Made by a program: the position numbers and the translations under genes. A stretch of 64,000 bases of DNA from Bolinopsis microptera. Lineage: Eukaryota; Ctenophora; Tentaculata; Lobata; Bolinopsidae. Location: contig NC_087076.1 of NCBI RefSeq assembly GCF_026151205.1, forward strand, positions 18,277,419 through 18,341,418, given 5' to 3'. The notes under the pieces are model-generated. The model searched no databases, had not been told where the DNA came from, and saw only the letters and a list, made by a program, of their open reading frames with translations. Below are positions 63 through 54,566 of this stretch, piece by piece (positions within the stretch are counted from its first letter, which is position 1; the number at the start of each line of letters is the position of its first letter).

Positions 63-1845
63 AGGAGGATATTCTGTAGAGCAGACAACTCGAACAGAGC
101 TCCTTGCATCATACTAAGATAGAGAACTCTGCAAATGTAGACGATATGACCCAACAATACAGATCTACTAAGTTAGGACGTCTACTAATGGTTTCCTTAA
201 GAGATTGTCCCCTGAACATTGAACAATGATGCAATCTATCAGTTTCTAGCAGCATTATCTAACTGTTATGCAAGTTCTATCATCAGACTTCCCACTTCCC
301 GCCAGGGCTGGGTAAGGCTGCTTACTCCACAACTTAATGCAGCTACATTATTATTTACTCCACTATTATATGTATACTCCACTATTATTTACAAAGTAAA
401 TATTCGAACCCGCTAATATTCAAATGTTTCCTCCCTCAATGAGGTAACATTACTCTGCTCCAGGGCTAATGTGTGATCCAGTGCTTGGAGAGAGAGACAC
501 TGTTTGTACACACTAATGGGTCTACACTCTACAGTGTGTCATGAGGCACGCTCTCTACAAGCTCTCTACACACTTTCTACACGCTCTCTACACTCATGTA
601 ATGGTTATTTTACTAATGGTTAATGGTCATTTCTCATTGGTCCATTGTAATGGAAAACTTATGGATCATGGTTTCTATATATTAAATTTGCAATATATTA
701 ACTATTAGTTTATAGTAAATACGAAAACAAGCTTAGGACTTGCAGGTTATATTCATTATTAATGAAAGTTACTCTATGATGGGTAATTAGACAATCGGGG
801 AAACCTCCCATGTCCGTTCTGTTTGGAAACATGCGCAATTCGGTAATCTGTCGATGTGCACATAACGTACGGGTAATGCACGGTTAATGCATAACGTTAA
901 GTAACGATTGTGGGCTAACCGTGTGTTAACCGTAGCTACCTGTGTGTTAACCTTGTTTTATGTGTGCCTTAACCGTGCATTATGTGTTCACTGTTCATCG
1001 ACAGATTACCGAGTTCCCCACATTTCACATAATATGTGTTGGAAACTCAATAACAAACAGATAACTGATACTATTAATAACAATGTTAATTTAACTAGGT
1101 TGGACATTGGAGAAATTTATTCCTATGAAAAAAATAAGATTACAAGCAAGTCACCTGGCACTAGGAAGGCTCATCTTGGCAGTACTGAACTCGTTGATGA
1201 AGAGAATCTTGTCCCCTGGTTGCAGGTATGGCTCTATCTCAGAGACTCGCACATACACTCCCGAGTGTACACCTGCCACACCAACTGTGTCTCCATGTCT
1301 GATAAATTATAAAATTTAAAAAAGTAAGTATTGTCAATTCTAACATAGAAAGAAGGCGGATAATTACATGAACGTTTCATCTCATAGGATCGTTTTTTTC
1401 TCCAAAAGAGCAAATACCACAAAATCAAATATTAAGTGATCAATTAAATGAAGCCAAGTTCATAACCGATTGAAGCTGTTTAAACCTATCACATAAGATT
1501 AAATGGGTTTCCGATGACACTTTAACGGCACCCGAATTCGAGCTCTGATCATTTCTGCTGCACAGCGAATACCTGGACCCTCCTGCAAACAAGATGTTAG
1601 TCAAGCATATAAATGTATGATACAATAGTAATAAACAAATTTTTGAAATAATAATATGATGATTGTTTTGTTTTAGAATAGATCAAAGTTGTAGTGCAAA
1701 CCATTAAACAATTTGTAAACCTCCATAATTCAGTTTAAAGCTCACCATTGTTAGAATTCAATATCTGAGAATCACTAGTCCTAAGGTTGGTGTTTTTTCG
1801 AATGGATTTTGGCAGCGTAAAGTAAGATTTCCCCCCATCACTCAT
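63..1845 (-). CDS. PDZ-domain protein, partial (four exons, runs off left edge)
   Basis: Four exons on the minus strand join with matching phases: 1845-1746, 1582-1486, 1298-1155 and 128-63. Each internal border has GT and AG; the last donor (GTAAGTATAG) shows the gene continues beyond base 1. The third exon encodes a clear PDZ core (GDTVGVAGVHSGVYV, then LQPGDKILFIN), and exon 4 adds a helix-like end of the domain. PDZ domains bind C-terminal peptides and scaffold membrane or junction complexes. The N-terminal ~65 residues are Ser/Asn/Lys-rich with no recognised domain. I chose the ATG at 1845 because an in-frame TAA lies just upstream, but this exon could instead be internal, with an acceptor AG just before it. 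The PDZ style recalls MAGUK-type proteins such as DLG5 or CARMA; I cannot assign a family member. Confidence 0.62.
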
Positions 1846-3206
1846 ACTTTATATTTCACCCATAACAAGTCATCTCATATCCCACTACGTTAGTACATTT
1901 GGGCTGAAATAGTTATTAATTTAAGAGCCTAGAACAACTATACAATTGTGGATTGGTCACAATAATGATTAAGAAAATCTAAATCACTATAGGCTACAAT
2001 GAGCATTTTAGTACAGTAAATAGCATGGTAGAAATAGAAATGCAGGAAACAACAGGCAGTAACATTAATACATGTAAACCCCGATTTAGGAAAGTATGGG
2101 AAAGGAAACAGCAACTGCAAAACAGGGTTTTCTTTGTTTACATTATGCGCAATAAATTCTGGGGGTGGGGAGGGGGTGGGGGAGGGGGAGGCCGGGGTGG
2201 GGCCAACATGCAACGTTACACAACTGCCACAAACCCTGATTTACTGCAAACCCTGATTTACCACACACCCTAATTTACTGCAAATCCCAATTTATGGATT
2301 ACATCAAAAGACTAAGAAATGAAGCGCAAAATATGCCAGATAGATCTTGGCCATTTTAGAATTAAAGCATTAAGGACAATAGGAAAACATTATTCTTGGG
2401 ACAAGTCAAACGACCTAAATTTGCAGCAAAAAATTCAAAATAAAAGCAAAAATTTGAAAATCATACATATTGCTTAAAGCTCTCAATCAAGATGATTTGA
2501 TTGATTTTGACTTGAAATTTTCACAGATAGTATGTTCATTGTACATATACAATACAGCAATAATATAAAAGAACAAATCGGCATCATGAAGCATTACAAA
2601 AAGTTAAAAAGTGTCCTGAAAAGACCATAATATTTTTAAAATACCAAATAAATGGTTAATTAAAGTGTTCCAAGTTCTGGAGATATACCTATTACAGGTA
2701 AAATCATCAACAACAAAAAATTAGGAATTTCTTTTTCAGCTGTCAGGTCCACCATCAAAGAAAAACAAAACAAAATAAGGGCTGACACACTCTAGACACA
2801 GGACGTGACAGAGTTAGGGGTTTCAACTCTCTCGCTCTGACTATGAGGACACACTGATAGCAATAATTCTTGGCAATTCTTCCTCCAGTGACCACTTTTC
2901 AGGTCTTCTCAGCTAGACAGCTAATGCACAAGGGCTAATCTTGAGGCCACCACATTTAACCTAGGATTAGGGGACCGGGTTAGCTTTGCCACACTTTTCA
3001 TCGAAATATGACTGGACTCTCTACAAACATCTAGTAGCTGTGCAGCGTTTGACTGACACCCTTACTGGTTCTTAGTAAGGGTAACCAGTGGTTCTAATCA
3101 GTTTCTAAGATATTCGGAAGATATCAACGCTCAACAACAGTTCATCTTGGACATCCTGCAGAAAAGCTTTAACACAGCCTGTTTCATTACGCGGGAAAAC
3201 CCTTAG
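1846..3206. other. no gene recognised; G-rich tract
   Basis: I see no convincing gene. A purine/G-rich tract at 2160-2200 gives a low-complexity Gly/Pro open frame on both strands that I do not believe codes. Upstream exons of the PDZ gene could lie here, but I could not anchor any. Confidence 0.5.
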
Positions 3207-3214
3207 ATCTACAG

Positions 3215-3301
3215 TTAACGGGTGATACTCGTAAAATATTTGTTTCAAGACCGTCGACGAGTCCAACTCGGCGCGCGTCTTGGTAGGTTATAAACCTACA
3301 A
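3215..3301 (+). mobile_element. micro-element family A, copy 1 (87 bp)
   Basis: It begins TTAACGGGTGATACTCG and ends GGTTATAAACCTACAA, flanked by the exact 8-bp direct repeat ATCTACAG (3207-3214 and 3302-3309). The body holds a GTCGACGAGTCC...ACTCGGCGCGCG block whose CGAGT/ACTCG can pair as a small hairpin, and the 3' end carries a GTAGGTT/AACCTAC palindrome. Other copies are at 9670, 26924 and 62169, plus degraded ones at 3484, 4455 and 29802. Confidence 0.85.
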
Positions 3302-46043: not shown

Positions 46044-48250
46044 TTATTTACAAATTTTGTGCGATGAGCCTAGCTCGCAATTTCGCATGAATCTTGACCT
46101 GGGGTCTAGAGTTTTATCAGATAGCAAACCGGCTAGGTCAGTGATATTTTTGGGATGGAAGTTAAATTTTTCTCTAACTGAGGAGTAGAGTAAACAGTCA
46201 GTTAAAACATGAATTTCGTCCTCAATAGGCTTAAGCCCCTTGCTGAAAAAGTAGTAAGTGCACCATCGATGTTCTCTTGGTACTAGGGGGGTTTCGTAAC
46301 GGCCCCTCTCAATGTAAAGGTTGTGGCAGCGAATACGAAACCTTGTTAAGCTTTTCCGAGCATCAGGGATCTTAACCACTCCTAAGTATGTTTCTGGTTC
46401 AAAGTCATGTTTAATTTGATTATAGAATTCTAATTTAGGCAAGGATGCCTTGGCAGATTTCCAGGTATCCACAAATTCTTCCCTCATGTTGTGACTGATT
46501 TGTGTAGAGAGCTTAGATTTTGAGGAGGATGAGTGGGGGAAGTTATATTTGGTGAGAAGATTGGAGATGTTGGTACACCAAGGAAGGCCGAGCATAATCT
46601 GCTCGTGAAATGCAGCAGAGAGAAGTTCATTTTCAGTGCCTCCAAGGCGATTATAGAAATCTATTGCAAGTTTGCAGGCTTTAATGAAAAGGGGGTGTCG
46701 CCCACTTTCGCCCCAGCAGCCTATATTTGATAATTTTGAATGGACAGCCGACAGACAAAGACCACTTGATATTTACTTAAGCCTTAAGGTGGAATCTTTC
46801 ATAGTGGTCTTGTGAGATGTACTTGAGAGTATGCTATGGGTTGGCTTTACTATTTGTTTTGGAGAGGTATCTCATGGTTTTTGAGTGGGGACATAAGATT
46901 TGGCAGCCATAGAGCAGGATCGGTTTTATTAGAGAGTCAAATAGAATGTTTAGGGAACGTTGAGAGAGGGCATCTTTAACGATATTGCCTTTAAGGCCAT
47001 AGAGAGCACGGAGAGCCTTGGCCCTCAGCTCAGTATTAGCTGCTGTAAAAGATCCATTTCTGTGGAATATTATACCAAGATAGCAGTATGTTTCGGTGTG
47101 TTGGATGGGCTGGCATGCGTCTCCCAAAGTGAATGTTTCATAGGATTGTTTTCTTTTAGGAGAGCAGAATATGAGAATCTTGGTTTTTTTAATATTTACT
47201 TCAAGGCCCATAGAGTTACAGAAGCCGAATAGGATATTAATATTGTCTTGCAAGGCCTTGGGCAAGTAGGACAAGATCGTCAGCCCAGAGCAGATGTGAT
47301 TTTAGGAGGTCAGCTAGAATAGGATAATCACCAACAGATTTCAGGAGAGCTAGAGATAAAAAGTCATTAATATAGATTTTGAAAAGGTCCGGTGATAGGG
47401 GGTGTCCCTGTTCCTTTGCCAATGTCAATATTAGAGGACAAGAGTTTGGAGATTTTTATATGAGCAATTGAGTTTCTATACATATCACTTAGGCAATTGA
47501 AGAAGTTTCCAGTTATTCCCAGACATGTAATTTTGTCCCTATAACATACGTTGTCAAAGGCCTTTCTTAGATCAACAAAGCATGCATAGAGGCGAGCTGT
47601 TTTCACCTTGGCTCGGTATATTTGTCAATGACTGTCTTAAGGGTGAAGACGTGGTCGTTTGTTTGAGCACCCTTCGAGAACCCTAGTTGTTCTTTTGGGT
47701 CAGGGCAGTAGAGCTTTTTGAAGTGCAGGAGACGCTCAAGTAAGATGCTAGAGAACAGTTTACCCATACAGCTACCAACAGCTATTGCTCTGTGGTTGTC
47801 CGGACTGAAAGGGTTGCCAGACTTGTAAATGGGAGTAATGTTACTTGTGTGCCATGGATATTGGATAGTAGCCGGAGACCAGTGAGTGGTTCAAGTTTTT
47901 GAGGGTGGCTTTGAGACAAAGCGGAGTTAGGCTCTGAAGCATCTCGTTGAATATCAAGTCGTTTGAGCAACTTTTACCTTTTTTGAGATTTTTGATGGCA
48001 GAGGTCACTTCAGATTCTGAGATGAGCTTGTTTAGGAATTAGGATATCCTGATCTGGTGGTTCAGGGTAATGTTTGTGATTGTGGTGAGTGAGATCTGGC
48101 TCCTGGTCTGGTTTTTTTATAAAGGGATGCAAAGAAGTCGTGCAAGCTAGCTAAATCAAATTTGTCAAGGAAGGGGCTAGTGTCATGTTCTTGCTTAAGC
48201 CGTTTAAATTTTTTCCAGTCGAGTATCATGTAGTATGTTTTTCGCTAAAA
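46044..48250 (-). pseudogene. decayed LINE: RT palm to C-terminal zinc knuckle
   Basis: On minus the pieces run in order but in several frames. LDWKKFKRLKQEHD lies near 48.2 kb. FVDLRKAFDNVCYRDK follows at 47.57 kb, then GHPLSPDLFKIYINDF and HLLWADDLVLLA at 47.3-47.4 kb, with W in place of Y in YADD. The thumb region comes next (YLGIIFHRNGSF), then RFRIRCHNL...CTYYFFSKGLKPIEDEIHVL at 46.2-46.4 kb. Frameshifts and stops make it non-functional. The C terminus matches the fragment at 63.7 kb almost residue for residue, so both belong to one family. The endonuclease region is missing. Confidence 0.82.
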
Positions 48251-48376
48251 TCAAATGTAGAATATTCTAGAAATCCAATACACTGATCAACCAACTTGCT
48301 GACATGGCTTAATCAAGAAAATGGTTAGAGTTATGGGACTTGATTTTTGTACCACAAATGTGACATAAAATGGATA

Positions 48377-49632
48377 CCTTAGTGCAAGAAATATAGGCGG
48401 CAAGAATATAAGGCGCTAGAAATTAAGGCGGCAAGAAATTAAGGCGATATTTTTTTCGGAAAAAATACGATTTTTGATCGCAAATTTGGTTATAGTTTTG
48501 GTCGAAATAGTGTCAATTTTATTCTTTTATCAGTCTATAAAGCATAGAAATCTGTTTAAAAATACGATATATTGGACATTGGTCACATAAAAACTAAATG
48601 GTGCATGCACATTATATTTATAGTGATTGCTGTTCTGTCGTCTAAGTTTATAATTTTAAATTAGGTAGACATCCACTACATCAGCAAACTGCAAGTCAAT
48701 TGGTATATTCATTGCATTTGACAAAATGATAGTGCACATTCTGTACGCGGCAAGGAATTTTTATGTATGCTCTCTTCTACACACACACTCCCACCTCGCT
48801 GTTGTATAAAGGTATAACAATGTGTACTACTACAGTGACAATTGACATACCAGAGACATCATTTGTCATGGGGGTGAGAGGGTATCACTTTTATCAAAAG
48901 GATTGGACAAAACCATCTAAAGACGATACTTTATCATTCGAGAAGGAAGATAATAATCCCTACGATTCTTTTGCAGTCGCAGTGAAAGCGAAATTTCCGC
49001 ACAAGCTAGTACCGATAACTGTAGGACATGTGCCAATTGAAATATCACGAATTGTCTACTTTTCGATTGGTCATGGCTGCTCCTACAAAGTAAAAGTCCT
49101 GGAGGAGAAACCTGCACGTTCTCCTCTTACACAGGGCGGCTTAGAAGTGAAGTGCTCTGTAACTGCTTCATGGACCAATGAGAAGGGAATAACGCTCCTC
49201 AAGAAGTTAGTCGACGAAAAGTACAGCTTCGACAAACGTTTGGAGGATGAATCAGCTGATATTATCAAGAAGCTATTTCCAGACACGACGGAGCAAGATG
49301 ACGACGACTATCTTGGTTATGGATTGCAGCTGCTGGAGATATATGACTCTGATGAAGAAGGAGAAGACGAGAATATTAATTGATATATTAATGTATTTAG
49401 ACTCAAGTTAATTTATTTTAAATATGTATTTCATTGAATTCTAGCAAATAACGAAATCGACATGTAAATTTAAAATAATAAAATCACACGAAAATTTCTT
49501 ATGAAAAAATCGCAAGAAAAAAAATTAAGGCGGTTAGAAATTACGGTGGTCAGATATTAAGGCGGCAAGAAATTAAGGCGATTTTGTCAGAATCGCCTTA
49601 ATTTCTTGCCGCCTATATTTCTTGCACTAAGG
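48377..49632 (+). mobile_element. 1,256-bp inverted-repeat element carrying a HIRAN gene
   Basis: The ends are inverted repeats of about 30 bp (CCTTAGTGCAAGAAATATAG at left and its exact complement at right), each bordered by TA (48375-48376, 49633-49634), which suggests a TA target duplication. Next to both ends lie direct repeats of an AAGAAATTAAGGCGG-type unit (three at left, about four at right). A perfect 23-bp-arm hairpin with a 7-nt loop sits at 49561-49613. The only gene is the HIRAN protein; there is no transposase, so it is presumably moved in trans. The TA site suggests a Tc1/mariner-type or related enzyme, but the ends do not look typical. Confidence 0.85.
48820..49383 (+). CDS. 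HIRAN-domain protein inside a transposon-like element
   Basis: The frame from the ATG at 48820 gives 187 residues; an upstream in-frame ATG at 48763 would add 19 low-complexity residues. I prefer 48820 because the domain begins soon after it. The HIRAN features are clear: VMGVRGYHFYQ, then LSFEKEDNNPYDSFAVAV and VGHVPIEISRIVYF. HIRAN folds bind DNA 3' ends, as in the fork remodeler HLTF, and stand-alone copies are known in phages and some animals. The C-terminal third is acidic (EQDDDDYLGYG, DSDEEGEDE). No other domain. The frame is intact, implying recent activity or selection. It lies centrally in the inverted-repeat element, so its role may be in the element's own replication or transposition; that is inference. 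Confidence 0.78.
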   Translation: MCTTTVTIDIPETSFVMGVRGYHFYQKDWTKPSKDDTLSFEKEDNNPYDSFAVAVKAKFPHKLVPITVGHVPIEISRIVYFSIGHGCSYKVKVLEEKPARSPLTQGGLEVKCSVTASWTNEKGITLLKKLVDEKYSFDKRLEDESADIIKKLFPDTTEQDDDDYLGYGLQLLEIYDSDEEGEDENIN

Positions 49633-49634
49633 TA

Positions 49635-51197
49635 ACTTTTTCTCCCTCTTCGCTTTCTCTTCCATTACTACATATTATGTAGTGTTCGTACATGAATCAT
49701 AATTAGGTTAGCTTGAAGTAATAATATAAGCTTATTAGAGGGGGATCCACTCATTGCGGTCTGTTTTTTTCATACGATAATGTAATGCATGTTTTCAAAT
49801 ATAATAGGCGAGTGTGGTGCGGAGTTAATAAGGGTTAATTTCTAAAACGATTTAAATAAAAATGGAAAGCTGTTCAAGACGGGAGTAATGAGGTGTAATA
49901 GTCGTGGTACAGGGTGCACGGACCATATGATCATGGAATGTGGTGCCTAATTAGACAATAGAGAAACTGACCTTGTCTCACTAAATTCAACCACTTTCCA
50001 TAATAAAAATACTAACAACCAAATAAAGTTTTGAAAATAATTATGTACTATCATGATCACTACAGAAAATTTCCTCAGGTTTACTCCTAGTATTGATTGA
50101 ATAAATTTTCGTGCACATACAGAATGAATGGTTAATAATTTAATATATATGTAGACCAAGGTCTGTGCACGGGATGCTTCCTGGAAGAATCCAGTTCTTT
50201 TAGCGGGGCACCCTACCTAAAGCCAAATTGAGATATAATAATCATATTCCTAAGAAATAATCAGAAATCGAATACCAATCAAATAATATGATATATAGGA
50301 GTAGTAACCATATTTACTATGCAAAATGCCCCAACCACATAGTGTAAATTTATATAGAATTCAAATTCCATATCATCATTAAACCTCAATAGTCAATATA
50401 ATAGCCCAAGCAAAATTAAATAACTTCTTATATACCTTACTGTCATACTACAAATTGATTAAACATTTGAAATCTGTTAACCAGAGAATAAATTTCTAAA
50501 CCTAATGCAAGTGAAATAATTTAGATGCAATAATGAATGCCTAATGTGAGTATCATCTGTCAATGTCCTTGTAAAGCAGTCTGTACAAGAGATATGAGTA
50601 ACTAATATAGAAGAAAAAACAGGAAGTTGTCGTCTGTTGAAAAATAAATAAAATATCTAGAATATAAATTAGAATATAAAATAACTTTCAGTTAATGTGT
50701 CGTCAATAAACTGTACAATTATCAAATGTTAAAACTGGGTGATACAGTCACCAAAAATAAATACTAAGTATGATAAGTTAATAAATTAAATGTGGTCTAT
50801 AAAACTACCAATAGTAATATAATACCACTAGGTATAATAGGTCAATAAATTAAAAGTGGTTTATAAAACTACCACTGTGCGAATCCCTTCTCCAGTTTAA
50901 ACATTTCAGTCATGTGCAAAATCAATCAAAATGGTAAGGTGGTCAAAAAGGGAATATCCTTTCGACATAAATTATATATGCCTCAGATTTAAAAGAATTA
51001 GAAGATACTTAGTTATCGTCGACTATGATTGCAGTGTAAAATTTGTCATATGAATTGTGGACGGTGTAATTAGGGTCTGTTGTTATAGATGAGAGTACAT
51101 TGATAAAGCTTTCGCTGACGTTAAGGAAAGTAGAGATTGTCCAGCAAGGGTGTTAATTAGCCGCAATCCTCCCAAGATAAAATACGTTAGGATCTTA
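49635..51197. other. intergenic, AT-rich, no gene recognised
   Basis: A two-copy tandem of about 65 bp (AATAAATTAAA.GTGGT.TATAAAACTACCA) lies at 50777-50880. No gene seen. Confidence 0.45.
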
Positions 51198-51600: not shown

Positions 51601-52526
51601 CTAATTCCCGGTAACTTTGCTCCTATTTAACCCAATAATCCTCGCTTTAAATTTCTCGATATAAATATCTTCAAACATGTTAAGTTCCTCTCTACTACAT
51701 TGTTTAATAATACCCAAATTAAAATTGCTTAATTTCTCAGAAAGTTTGTCTTGGTGCATTTCAGATATGTGCATGGAAAGGGCCGATTTAGTGTAACAAC
51801 CTGGTTTAAAAGCTGCCCTGTGGCTGTTCATTCGTGTGCTTAAAGTCAACCAGGTTTGGCCGAAATAAAAGCCACTATCGCACAGTTTACATTGGGCTAC
51901 ATAAATCACGTTTTCATTACTACAGTTAAGCCGCATGTCAATTCTGATAATCTGTTTGTTAACTGTCAAAGTACCATTTGCTGTTCCACAAGTTAGCTTG
52001 CATGTAAGACAGCGAGGTCTATTGCAAGCTTGTGATGTTATGTCCGCCGTATTGATGGAGTTGGGTGCTGAGTCAGCAGGTGTTGTCGCAAATCTCCGCC
52101 TCTTGAACATTTCATCTGCGATGTTGTTGTCCCTTCTGTGAGCTATTGTTATGGATACCTGCTTACCAATGATATGCTCAATAGTTTGTTTCTTATCTTC
52201 AAGGAAGCTCCTGATTTCGTTGAGTTCCTTGCAGTACTGTGTTGAGAGGATCAAGTTGCAGTGTTCACTATTTGGCATAGACTCATTGGTATTCTCCCTC
52301 GGTGTAAGGCGTTGATCCCGGTTAACCAGACTAGCTTTGGTTAATGCTGCCTTAAGTTCTGCATCCCTGTATCCGCTTTTCTTGAAGTCTCCCATAATCT
52401 CTTGTGCTGCTTCCATAAAAGTGTCCTCATCTGAGCATATGGTTTTTGTTCTTAGAAGTTGTGAGTAAGGAACGCTTTTGAAGACATGAGGAGGATGGTG
52501 ACTGTTCCTCTGTAGAAAAGATCTGT
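51601..52526 (-). pseudogene. Penelope-like GIY-YIG part, 5'-truncated inverted copy
   Basis: It encodes the same C-terminal ~300 residues as the plus copy, from RSFLQRNSHHPPH to the stop, without the RT palm. The nine residues before it (MSGWGWVCY) come from the junction. It contains the GIY-YIG nuclease region and Cys-rich knuckle but cannot make a full protein. Confidence 0.85.
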
Positions 52527-52586
52527 AGCAGACCCACCCCCAACCTGACAAAAGCGGAAACTAGAGGCCAAAACTGGTGTAAGAGC

Positions 52587-54566
52587 ATGATGCGACTTGG
52601 TAAATTGGTTTTCACAAGAGCTGATAAAGGAGGAAGTGTCCTTGTGATGAACCCCCAGGATGTGGATAAAGCTATAAGAGCTGAACTTAGCAAATCAGAT
52701 GGTTACAGCAGTCTACCAGAAGACCCTAATGATGGAATTCTTAAAAACCAGAAGTTGCTTATTGAAAATCTAATCAATAACGGCTCTTTCAACAACAAGA
52801 TTTTAGAAACCATTACGGGGTACACAGAAAGAGGAGGGAAAATGAGAAAAACCTGTTTTAAGACAAGGACAGGAATACCATACCCACTATTCAAGATCCA
52901 CAAACTAGACCCCCAACAAATCCTAGACAGGACCATTCCCCCATCGAGATTAGTACACGCTCTTACCCAATCTCCAACAACCAGGCTTGAACAATTCCTT
53001 GCTCACCACTTCGGCCAAGTTTCACGTAACTATGCTAGTGATGAATACATCAAGGATACAAACGATTTCCTACACCAAATAAAAGAAGTCGGAATAGAAG
53101 AAGGCGAATTACTCTATACTCTAGACGTGAAAGCCCTTTACCCGAGCATGGACCAGACCATCGTTCTACAGTCAGTCAAAGCAGCACTGGAAGAGGATAG
53201 AACCCTAACCCCTGAAATCAGAAGCGGCATACTCCCATGCATCGAATTCTGTCTTCAAAACTCTACTCTAGAGTACAGAGGCATGTATTTCAAAGCCATC
53301 AAAGGAGTACCAACAGGCGGCTCCATATCTAGACCTTTGGCTGACACATTCCTCAAATTTCTCAAACTACATCTCAAATCTAAAATACCAGAGTGGGATG
53401 TACTCATCAGATTATGGAAAAGGTATATCGACGACATTTTCGGTATATGGAGAGGTACGAAAGAGGAATTTGAGGATTTCGTCTCTAAACTCAACAGTGA
53501 GTCATCAACTTACGGGATAGAGTTCACAGGGGATGGAGGTAGAGAGCTAAGCTTCTTGGATGTTAAGGTCAGGATAACAGATCCAGAACACGACACACCA
53601 GTAACTCTGGCTACCTCTCTGTTCAAGAAACCTACTGATAACAGATCTTTTCTACAGAGGAACAGTCACCATCCTCCTCATGTCTTCAAAAGCGTTCCTT
53701 ACTCACAACTTCTAAGAACAAAAACCATATGCTCAGATGAGGACACTTTTATGGAAGCAGCACAAGAGATTATGGGAGACTTCAAGAAAAGCGGATACAG
53801 GGATGCAGAACTTAAGGCAGCATTAACCAAAGCTAGTCTGGTTAACCGGGATCAACGCCTTACACCGAGGGAGAATACCAATGAGTCTATGCCAAATAGT
53901 GAACACTGCAACTTGATCCTCTCAACACAGTACTGCAAGGAACTCAACGAAATCAGGAGCTTCCTTGAAGATAAGAAACAAACTATTGAGCATATCATTG
54001 GTAAGCAGGTATCCATAACAATAGCTCACAGAAGGGACAACAACATCGCAGATGAAATGTTCAAGAGGCGGAGATTTGCGACAACACCTGCTGACTCAGC
54101 ACCCAACTCCATCAATACGGCGGACATAACATCACAAGCTTGCAATAGACCTCGCTGTCTTACATGCAAGCTAACTTGTGGAACAGCAAATGGTACTTTG
54201 ACAGTTAACAAACAGATTATCAGAATTGACATGCGGCTTAACTGTAGTAATGAAAACGTGATTTATGTAGCCCAATGTAAACTGTGCGATAGTGGCTTTT
54301 ATTTCGGCCAAACCTGGTTGACTTTAAGCACACGAATGAACAGCCACAGGGCAGCTTTTAAACCAGGTTGTTACACTAAATCGGCCCTTTCCATGCACAT
54401 ATCTGAAATGCACCAAGACAAACTTTCTGAGAAATTAAGCAATTTTAATTTGGGTATTATTAAACAATGTAGTAGAGAGGAACTTAACATGTTTGAAGAT
54501 ATTTATATCGAGAAATTTAAAGCGAGGATTATTGGGTTAAATAGGAGCAAAGTTACCGGGAATTAG
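52587..54566 (+). CDS. Penelope-like element: RT plus GIY-YIG endonuclease
   Basis: The 659-residue frame starts within the RT (VFTRADKGGSVLVMN). TLDVKALYPSM, GVPTGGSISRPLAD (from about residue 240), the catalytic YIDD at 280-283 and LSFLDV follow. KKPTDNRSFLQRNSHHPPH marks the end of the RT. A linker with CNRPRCLTCKLTC, a Cys knuckle, precedes a GIY-YIG-type nuclease (from about 556: NVIYVAQCKLC, FYFGQTWLTLSTRMNSHR). This domain pair defines GIY-YIG Penelope-like elements, which copy their RNA at DNA ends or nicks. The usual N-terminal part of about 100-200 residues is absent, so the copy is 5'-truncated near 52527, at the palindrome junction. The frame is otherwise intact. Confidence 0.92.
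   Translation: MMRLGKLVFTRADKGGSVLVMNPQDVDKAIRAELSKSDGYSSLPEDPNDGILKNQKLLIENLINNGSFNNKILETITGYTERGGKMRKTCFKTRTGIPYPLFKIHKLDPQQILDRTIPPSRLVHALTQSPTTRLEQFLAHHFGQVSRNYASDEYIKDTNDFLHQIKEVGIEEGELLYTLDVKALYPSMDQTIVLQSVKAALEEDRTLTPEIRSGILPCIEFCLQNSTLEYRGMYFKAIKGVPTGGSISRPLADTFLKFLKLHLKSKIPEWDVLIRLWKRYIDDIFGIWRGTKEEFEDFVSKLNSESSTYGIEFTGDGGRELSFLDVKVRITDPEHDTPVTLATSLFKKPTDNRSFLQRNSHHPPHVFKSVPYSQLLRTKTICSDEDTFMEAAQEIMGDFKKSGYRDAELKAALTKASLVNRDQRLTPRENTNESMPNSEHCNLILSTQYCKELNEIRSFLEDKKQTIEHIIGKQVSITIAHRRDNNIADEMFKRRRFATTPADSAPNSINTADITSQACNRPRCLTCKLTCGTANGTLTVNKQIIRIDMRLNCSNENVIYVAQCKLCDSGFYFGQTWLTLSTRMNSHRAAFKPGCYTKSALSMHISEMHQDKLSEKLSNFNLGIIKQCSREELNMFEDIYIEKFKARIIGLNRSKVTGN

Follow-up and report, generated by a model that had tools for sequence, protein, structure and literature searches.

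The DNA analysed here (hereafter the window) is a stretch of 64,000 nucleotides from contig NC_087076.1 of the ctenophore Bolinopsis microptera. It contains a small element with inverted ends whose only gene encodes a HIRAN protein, and the question raised by this locus is why a mobile element should carry such a gene and nothing else. The original prediction for this DNA had suggested either a DNA-end-binding accessory factor or a single-gene system of replication or transposition, and had left to be checked whether copies with the same ends exist elsewhere, whether HIRAN always lies between them, whether empty sites can be found and whether a longer relative codes for a transposase.

Structure and insertion of the element

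The element is 1,256 bp long (48377-49632), with TA on both sides. Its features are listed with the basis of each assignment in parentheses.

48375-48376, no strand: TA, left copy of the target-site duplication (flank reading and empty sites)
48377-48415, plus strand: left terminal inverted repeat, perfect over 30 bp and matching at 37 of 39 positions (repeat scan, end comparison)
48377-48769, plus strand: left arm derived from the parent, parent positions 1-393 (alignment to L011)
48384-48446, plus strand: four direct 16-bp subterminal repeats of the GCAAGAAATTAAGGCG type (repeat unit search)
48769-48770, no strand: deletion junction, parent position 393 joined to 3292 with a 1-bp overlap (alignment to L011)
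48820-49383, plus strand: intact HIRAN gene, 187 aa plus stop (open reading frame, Pfam; protein identical in the full-length copies L011, L012 and L014)
48865-49161, plus strand: HIRAN domain, PF08797 (Pfam profile)
49282-49380, plus strand: acidic C-terminal tail, DTTEQDDDDY...DSDEEGEDENIN (sequence)
49517-49580, plus strand: four 16-bp subterminal repeats of the right end, in the orientation of the left array (repeat unit search)
49560-49614, no strand: hairpin with 25-bp arms, where the inner repeat array meets the inverted terminal units (folding)
49594-49632, minus strand: right terminal inverted repeat (repeat scan, end comparison)
49633-49634, no strand: TA, right copy of the target-site duplication (flank reading and empty sites)

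The inverted ends, predicted to be about 30 bp long, were confirmed. Their first 30 bp are identical, 37 of the first 39 positions match, and a repeat scan returned a terminal inverted pair of 48 nt that is 90% complementary. The subterminal repeats that had been noted were found as arrays at both ends; the 16-bp GCAAGAAATTAAGGCG unit occurs four times at the left end, and the right end has four units of that direction and two inverted ones, with a spacing of about 16 bp within each array. The left array is probably a protein-binding array. The two inverted units form the very end of the right side, after the four direct ones, and it is because direct repeats precede inverted terminal units that the right end can fold into a hairpin. 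The predicted hairpin is thus real but its arms measure 25 bp, not 23 bp; with a 5-nt loop it has a folding energy of -30.9 kcal/mol, as compared with -7.7 +/- 2.15 kcal/mol for shuffled sequences (z -10.8).

The TA dinucleotides reported on both sides were present, and empty sites were recovered as well. When the joined flanks were searched in the genome, a dispersed repeat was matched at dozens of places, the majority continuous across the junction. The insert was absent at that point from seven aligned paralogous places, and L078 retains the same TA. We therefore conclude from the paralogous empty sites that the window element is a true insertion. Chance repeats or a local artefact were ruled out by these sites, by the TA duplications and by the 24 copies described below. 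The dispersed repeat that surrounds the element (flanks within 48340-49834) has dozens of paralogs of 75-90% identity.

The intact 187-residue HIRAN protein with an acidic tail was also as predicted, and passes the Pfam cut-off (25.9 bits versus 24.7). The start given in the list of open reading frames, 48763, is a chimeric ATG upstream of the deletion junction. HIRAN is the only domain that Pfam finds in the 187-aa protein, which is without SNF2 helicase and RING domains. The HIRAN fold is a six-stranded beta-barrel; an AlphaFold2 model made from one sequence alone had a pLDDT of 34, and the best-ranked PDB match of the transposon HIRAN was the HIRAN domain of HLTF, a weak match (E 0.12).

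The window copy is a deletion derivative

The genome (264.7 Mb in 232 contigs) has Wnt genes at about four or five places, which marks it as that of an animal. It was searched with the window element, which yielded 26 loci, with both ends present at 24; all copy numbers are lower bounds. These 24 copies, referred to hereafter as family A, consist of four long copies (4.1-4.7 kb) and 20 internal-deletion derivatives. TA is present on both sides in 23 of them, including 19 of the 20 derivatives. The exception, L020, is without the left TA; its left flank ends in CCT and its right flank starts with TA, perhaps as the result of a flanking deletion.

The long copies answer the question of a transposase-coding relative. 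They measure 4,128-4,671 bp, are mutually at least 99% identical and differ slightly in total length, L014 having an extra insertion near its right end. Close to the left end of each lies a gene for a 499-aa DDE_1 transposase, on the minus strand; the HIRAN frame is on the plus strand, close to the right end. Both frames are open in L011, L013 and L014; there is a stop in the L012 transposase. Between the two genes of L011 (about 2485-2608) lie repeat units of the TTTAGCGG type, with a C tract of about 30 bp downstream. The near identity of the 4.1-kb copies suggests recent activity.

As compared with L011, the window copy lacks parent positions 394-3291 and is 100% identical over the remainder. 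The missing 2.9 kb contain the transposase gene and end about 50 bp short of the HIRAN ATG. HIRAN is therefore the sole cargo because this copy has lost its other gene; the sole-cargo reading holds for the window copy but not for its parent, which carries a transposase too. The window copy itself is an ordinary deletion derivative.

The 20 derivatives have 20 distinct junctions, with overlaps of 0-6 bp or short filler, and none retains the whole transposase gene. HIRAN is open in three (the window copy, L015 and L016), reduced to its 3' piece in 13 and gone altogether in four. About 250 bp separate the HIRAN stop codon from the right end. Since deletions that spare the ends sometimes spare HIRAN, its retention in three copies needs no selection, and its presence in the window copy can be explained by the geometry of random deletion alone. 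That the junctions differ from site to site fits an origin of the derivatives by internal deletion of copies already in place, possibly during interrupted gap repair after excision, as in P elements. Derivatives such as the window copy would be mobile only with transposase supplied from elsewhere.

Whether HIRAN always lies between these ends receives a divided answer. Numerous copies, and five families, have it there, and it is a genuine gene of the element; in most derivatives, however, it is broken or absent, yet the ends are the same. HIRAN as a cargo required in cis was ruled out, 17 of the 20 derivatives being without an intact gene.

The parent is pogo-like

The 499-aa transposase matches DDE_1 (PF03184) at 3.4e-08, with 33.7 bits in family A and 38.7 in family C (cut-off 22). 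Its catalytic motifs are LDQTP, WDDF and SPLD, and D242, D359 and D395 are invariant across families in the transposase alignment. The resulting DD35D falls within the DD29-56D range of catalytic spacing in pogo (PMC7386202). Because of the DDE_1 match, DD35D and the TA duplication, we call the parent a pogo-like cut-and-paste transposon. The single pogo-type transposase of classic form that was compared, L071 of this genome, is about 17-22% identical to that of the parent. L071 is without a HIRAN gene. Judging by its domain, its catalytic motifs and the target duplication, the transposase would cut the ends and insert the element at TA.

The parent resembles the pogo superfamily of IS630-Tc1-mariner (pogo, Tigger, Passer, Fot, Lemi) in its DDE_1 domain and D..D..D motifs, in its TA duplication and short inverted ends, and in the internal-deletion derivatives common to both. 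Unlike that superfamily it has a second, divergent gene, HIRAN, its ends start with CCTTA, and Pfam recognises no CENP-B or Tc5-type DNA-binding domain in its transposase (no match to CENP-B_N or HTH_Tnp_Tc5 at E<=1). Region 50-200 of the transposase is conserved across families and could be a diverged helix-turn-helix.

Two-gene transposons are known, namely PIF/Harbinger with a Myb-like protein and CACTA with TnpA. The parent is like them in being an autonomous element of two genes that has arrays of subterminal repeats and shortened copies unable to move by themselves. It differs in that the accessory is HIRAN, neither Myb-like nor TnpA-like, and the transposase belongs to another family.

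HIRAN and transposase are inherited together

The same genome was searched for further families with the Pfam HIRAN model and then with protein queries. The Pfam model matched 14 genomic places, every one of them in a transposon family. HIRAN and a transposase lie together between ends of TA followed by CCTTA in at least five diverged families, A to E. The ends of family A read CCTTAGTGCAAG after the TA; the other four families, each with HIRAN and transposase, are as follows.

Family B (L036, L037, and L052 with L070): ends CCTTAGTAC after TA
Family C (L054-L056, with the fragment L057): ends CCTTAGGTG after TA
Family D (L053): ends CCTTAGTTCCC/CCTTAATTCCC after TA
Family E (L058, found by protein queries): ends CCTTACAAGAC after TA

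The two genes are divergent in families A, B, C and E and in tandem in D. The family B transposase is split by a LINE-like insertion and that of family E consists of two open pieces; the pieces were read separately, and joined end to end only for protein comparison. The stand-alone HIRAN proteins of the families are 172-227 aa long, and those of B, C, D and E have acidic tails too. Against PF08797, families B and D score 27.0 and 26.4 bits and family C 23.1, slightly under the cut-off.

Protein identity between families is 26-51% for HIRAN and 26-49% for the transposase. Neighbour-joining trees of the two proteins agree, grouping (A,B) and (C,D) with 98-100% bootstrap. Synonymous differences between families are at or near saturation, with dN of 0.41-0.92, and for this reason no dN/dS figure is given. 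The agreeing trees, together with the saturation of synonymous sites, indicate that the pair has long been inherited together under constraint. HIRAN and transposase are fixed partners in this genome, co-inherited under constraint.

Families E and F have also given rise to high-copy elements, 1.06-1.09 kb long, that contain no transposase and a HIRAN gene lacking the N-terminal part. In family F (L060-L062 and further places; ends CCTTACTCGGG after TA) the truncated frame is open in many copies, and L066 has a longer HIRAN frame. Family F was seen only without transposase, no autonomous partner being found in this genome. It was not counted as a sixth two-gene family, since in L059 the HIRAN fragment has its own 1,082-bp element and the transposase piece lies outside the ends of that element. 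L063, L064 and L065 are copies of an amplified 1.09-kb family E derivative with one common junction; the family A derivatives are all single. Three transposase matches without HIRAN (C9:10823035, C6:6189049 and C6:19356706) were rejected as HIRAN-free families, all being family D deletion derivatives. Relatives of the transposase or of HIRAN were not found in viral contigs, nor were relatives of the transposase in prokaryotic genomes.

Possible roles of HIRAN

Taking structure and role together, we consider it likely that the window element is a deleted copy of a two-gene pogo-like transposon, in which HIRAN may act as a trans accessory at 3' ends. The DNA-end-binding accessory role originally proposed is plausible. 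In HLTF, the HIRAN domain takes single-stranded DNA but no duplex as its ligand, the NN90,91AA mutant has lost all binding, and a HIRAN fragment on its own can act in trans (PMC4666394); the domain has been described as a 3'-OH binder (PMC11237066). In an alignment made by eye, all of families A-E have the equivalents of HLTF Arg71 and Asp94, and families A-D that of Asn91 (the second Asn of NN90,91); Tyr72 is replaced by Gly in every family, and at the position of Tyr93 the families have Y, Y, D, E and H. The ligand pocket of HLTF is conserved in part, and since the stacking tyrosines are not, details of the ligand may differ from those of HLTF HIRAN. In contrast to HLTF and Rad5, the transposon HIRAN is a stand-alone protein with an acidic tail, and has no SNF2 motor and no RING. 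Many derivatives of families E and F have spread without an intact HIRAN gene. The spread of HIRAN-broken derivatives indicates that the protein is not needed in cis.

More specifically, we propose tentatively that HIRAN is an accessory acting in trans, and that its ligands are single-stranded 3'-OH ends made at excision or present at replication forks. It would shield 3' ends or hand them on, and would keep host HLTF-type machinery away. A bolder version is doubtful: transposition would depend on HIRAN as its second component, which would cap excised or nascent ends, in an undescribed pogo-like lineage comprising the first DNA transposons known to encode a 3'-end binder of the HIRAN type, perhaps linked to the fork by a PCNA-docking transposase.

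Other explanations place HIRAN outside the transposition machine or deny it a part. It is hardly credible that the window copy is a stand-alone element moved by HIRAN alone. The intact gene and perfect ends of this copy would suit the single-gene system of the original prediction, but the copy is one of 20 internal deletions with a junction found nowhere else in the genome, the remaining derivatives have junctions of their own and mostly a broken HIRAN, full-length parents with a transposase exist in the same genome, and HIRAN is without known catalytic activity. Nor is it at all likely that HIRAN is a passenger, a host gene captured by an ancestor and of no function to the element. The truncated frames of the high-copy E and F derivatives do appear to drift, with pN close to pS among those of family E, although the changes in these amplified derivatives are too few for a selection test. 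The five families, at 26-51% identity, nevertheless keep HIRAN open with its core motif, at synonymous saturation and with the branching of the transposase; because HIRAN is under this constraint, and a neutral passenger would be long dead, we regard the passenger explanation as unlikely.

Two further possibilities give the protein a function of another kind. HIRAN could be an anti-host or anti-repair factor, a competitive inhibitor of HLTF/Rad5-type proteins where ends are broken or forks have stalled, and would thereby bias donor-site repair towards recopying the element. Such a role fits a stand-alone HIRAN that has an acidic tail and no motor domain, and the isolated HIRAN domain is a dominant-negative inhibitor that blocks both HLTF-driven removal of Cas9 and resection at Cas9 ends (PMC11237066). 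The Pfam search, which would miss a domain split between exons, found no host HLTF HIRAN in this genome, and we judge this role rather unlikely. Coupling to replication is unlikely: here a short motif at the N-terminus of the transposase would dock it on PCNA, while HIRAN would mark nascent 3' ends at the fork, so that the element moves just after its site has been copied. The transposases of families B-E begin MSLHRFFQ, (MSSMPRT)DIRHFFG, MDIRSFFQ and MSLHRYFQ, that is, with a hydrophobic-x-x-aromatic-aromatic motif which we take to resemble a PCNA-interacting peptide of the RFC1 kind. HLTF HIRAN does act at forks (PMC4666394). Against docking, the canonical PIP-box glutamine is absent, the family A motif is degenerate (MSVRNLLGYY), and a short motif is weak evidence; the literature search returned no paper joining pogo transposase and PCNA. 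The trans accessory at 3' ends is the reading that we prefer.

A HIRAN domain in a eukaryotic DNA transposon was not found in the titles and abstracts searched, a coverage that left Repbase and most subscription journals outside, and the word HIRAN is absent from two published surveys of pogo elements. As far as could be found, no transposon that encodes a HIRAN protein has previously been described. If HIRAN protects or presents 3' ends, these elements would offer a minimal stand-alone HIRAN together with a tractable two-component transposition system. An end-recognition module best known from host fork-remodelling proteins would then belong to the kit of a mobile element, and there would be a route for host HIRAN genes and transposons to exchange parts.

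Other retroelement-like sequences lie near the element in the window. Upstream of it, on the minus strand (46044-47606), are broken LINE-like reverse-transcriptase frames, of which a close relative with a longer frame is found in L056 (732-1985). A 659-aa open frame on the plus strand (52587-54566) has the appearance of a Penelope-like retroelement with a GIY-YIG-type end. Beside it, on the minus strand (51601-52551), lies an inverted partial copy whose 316-aa frame repeats the C-terminal part of the 659-aa frame, the pair spanning 51601-54566.
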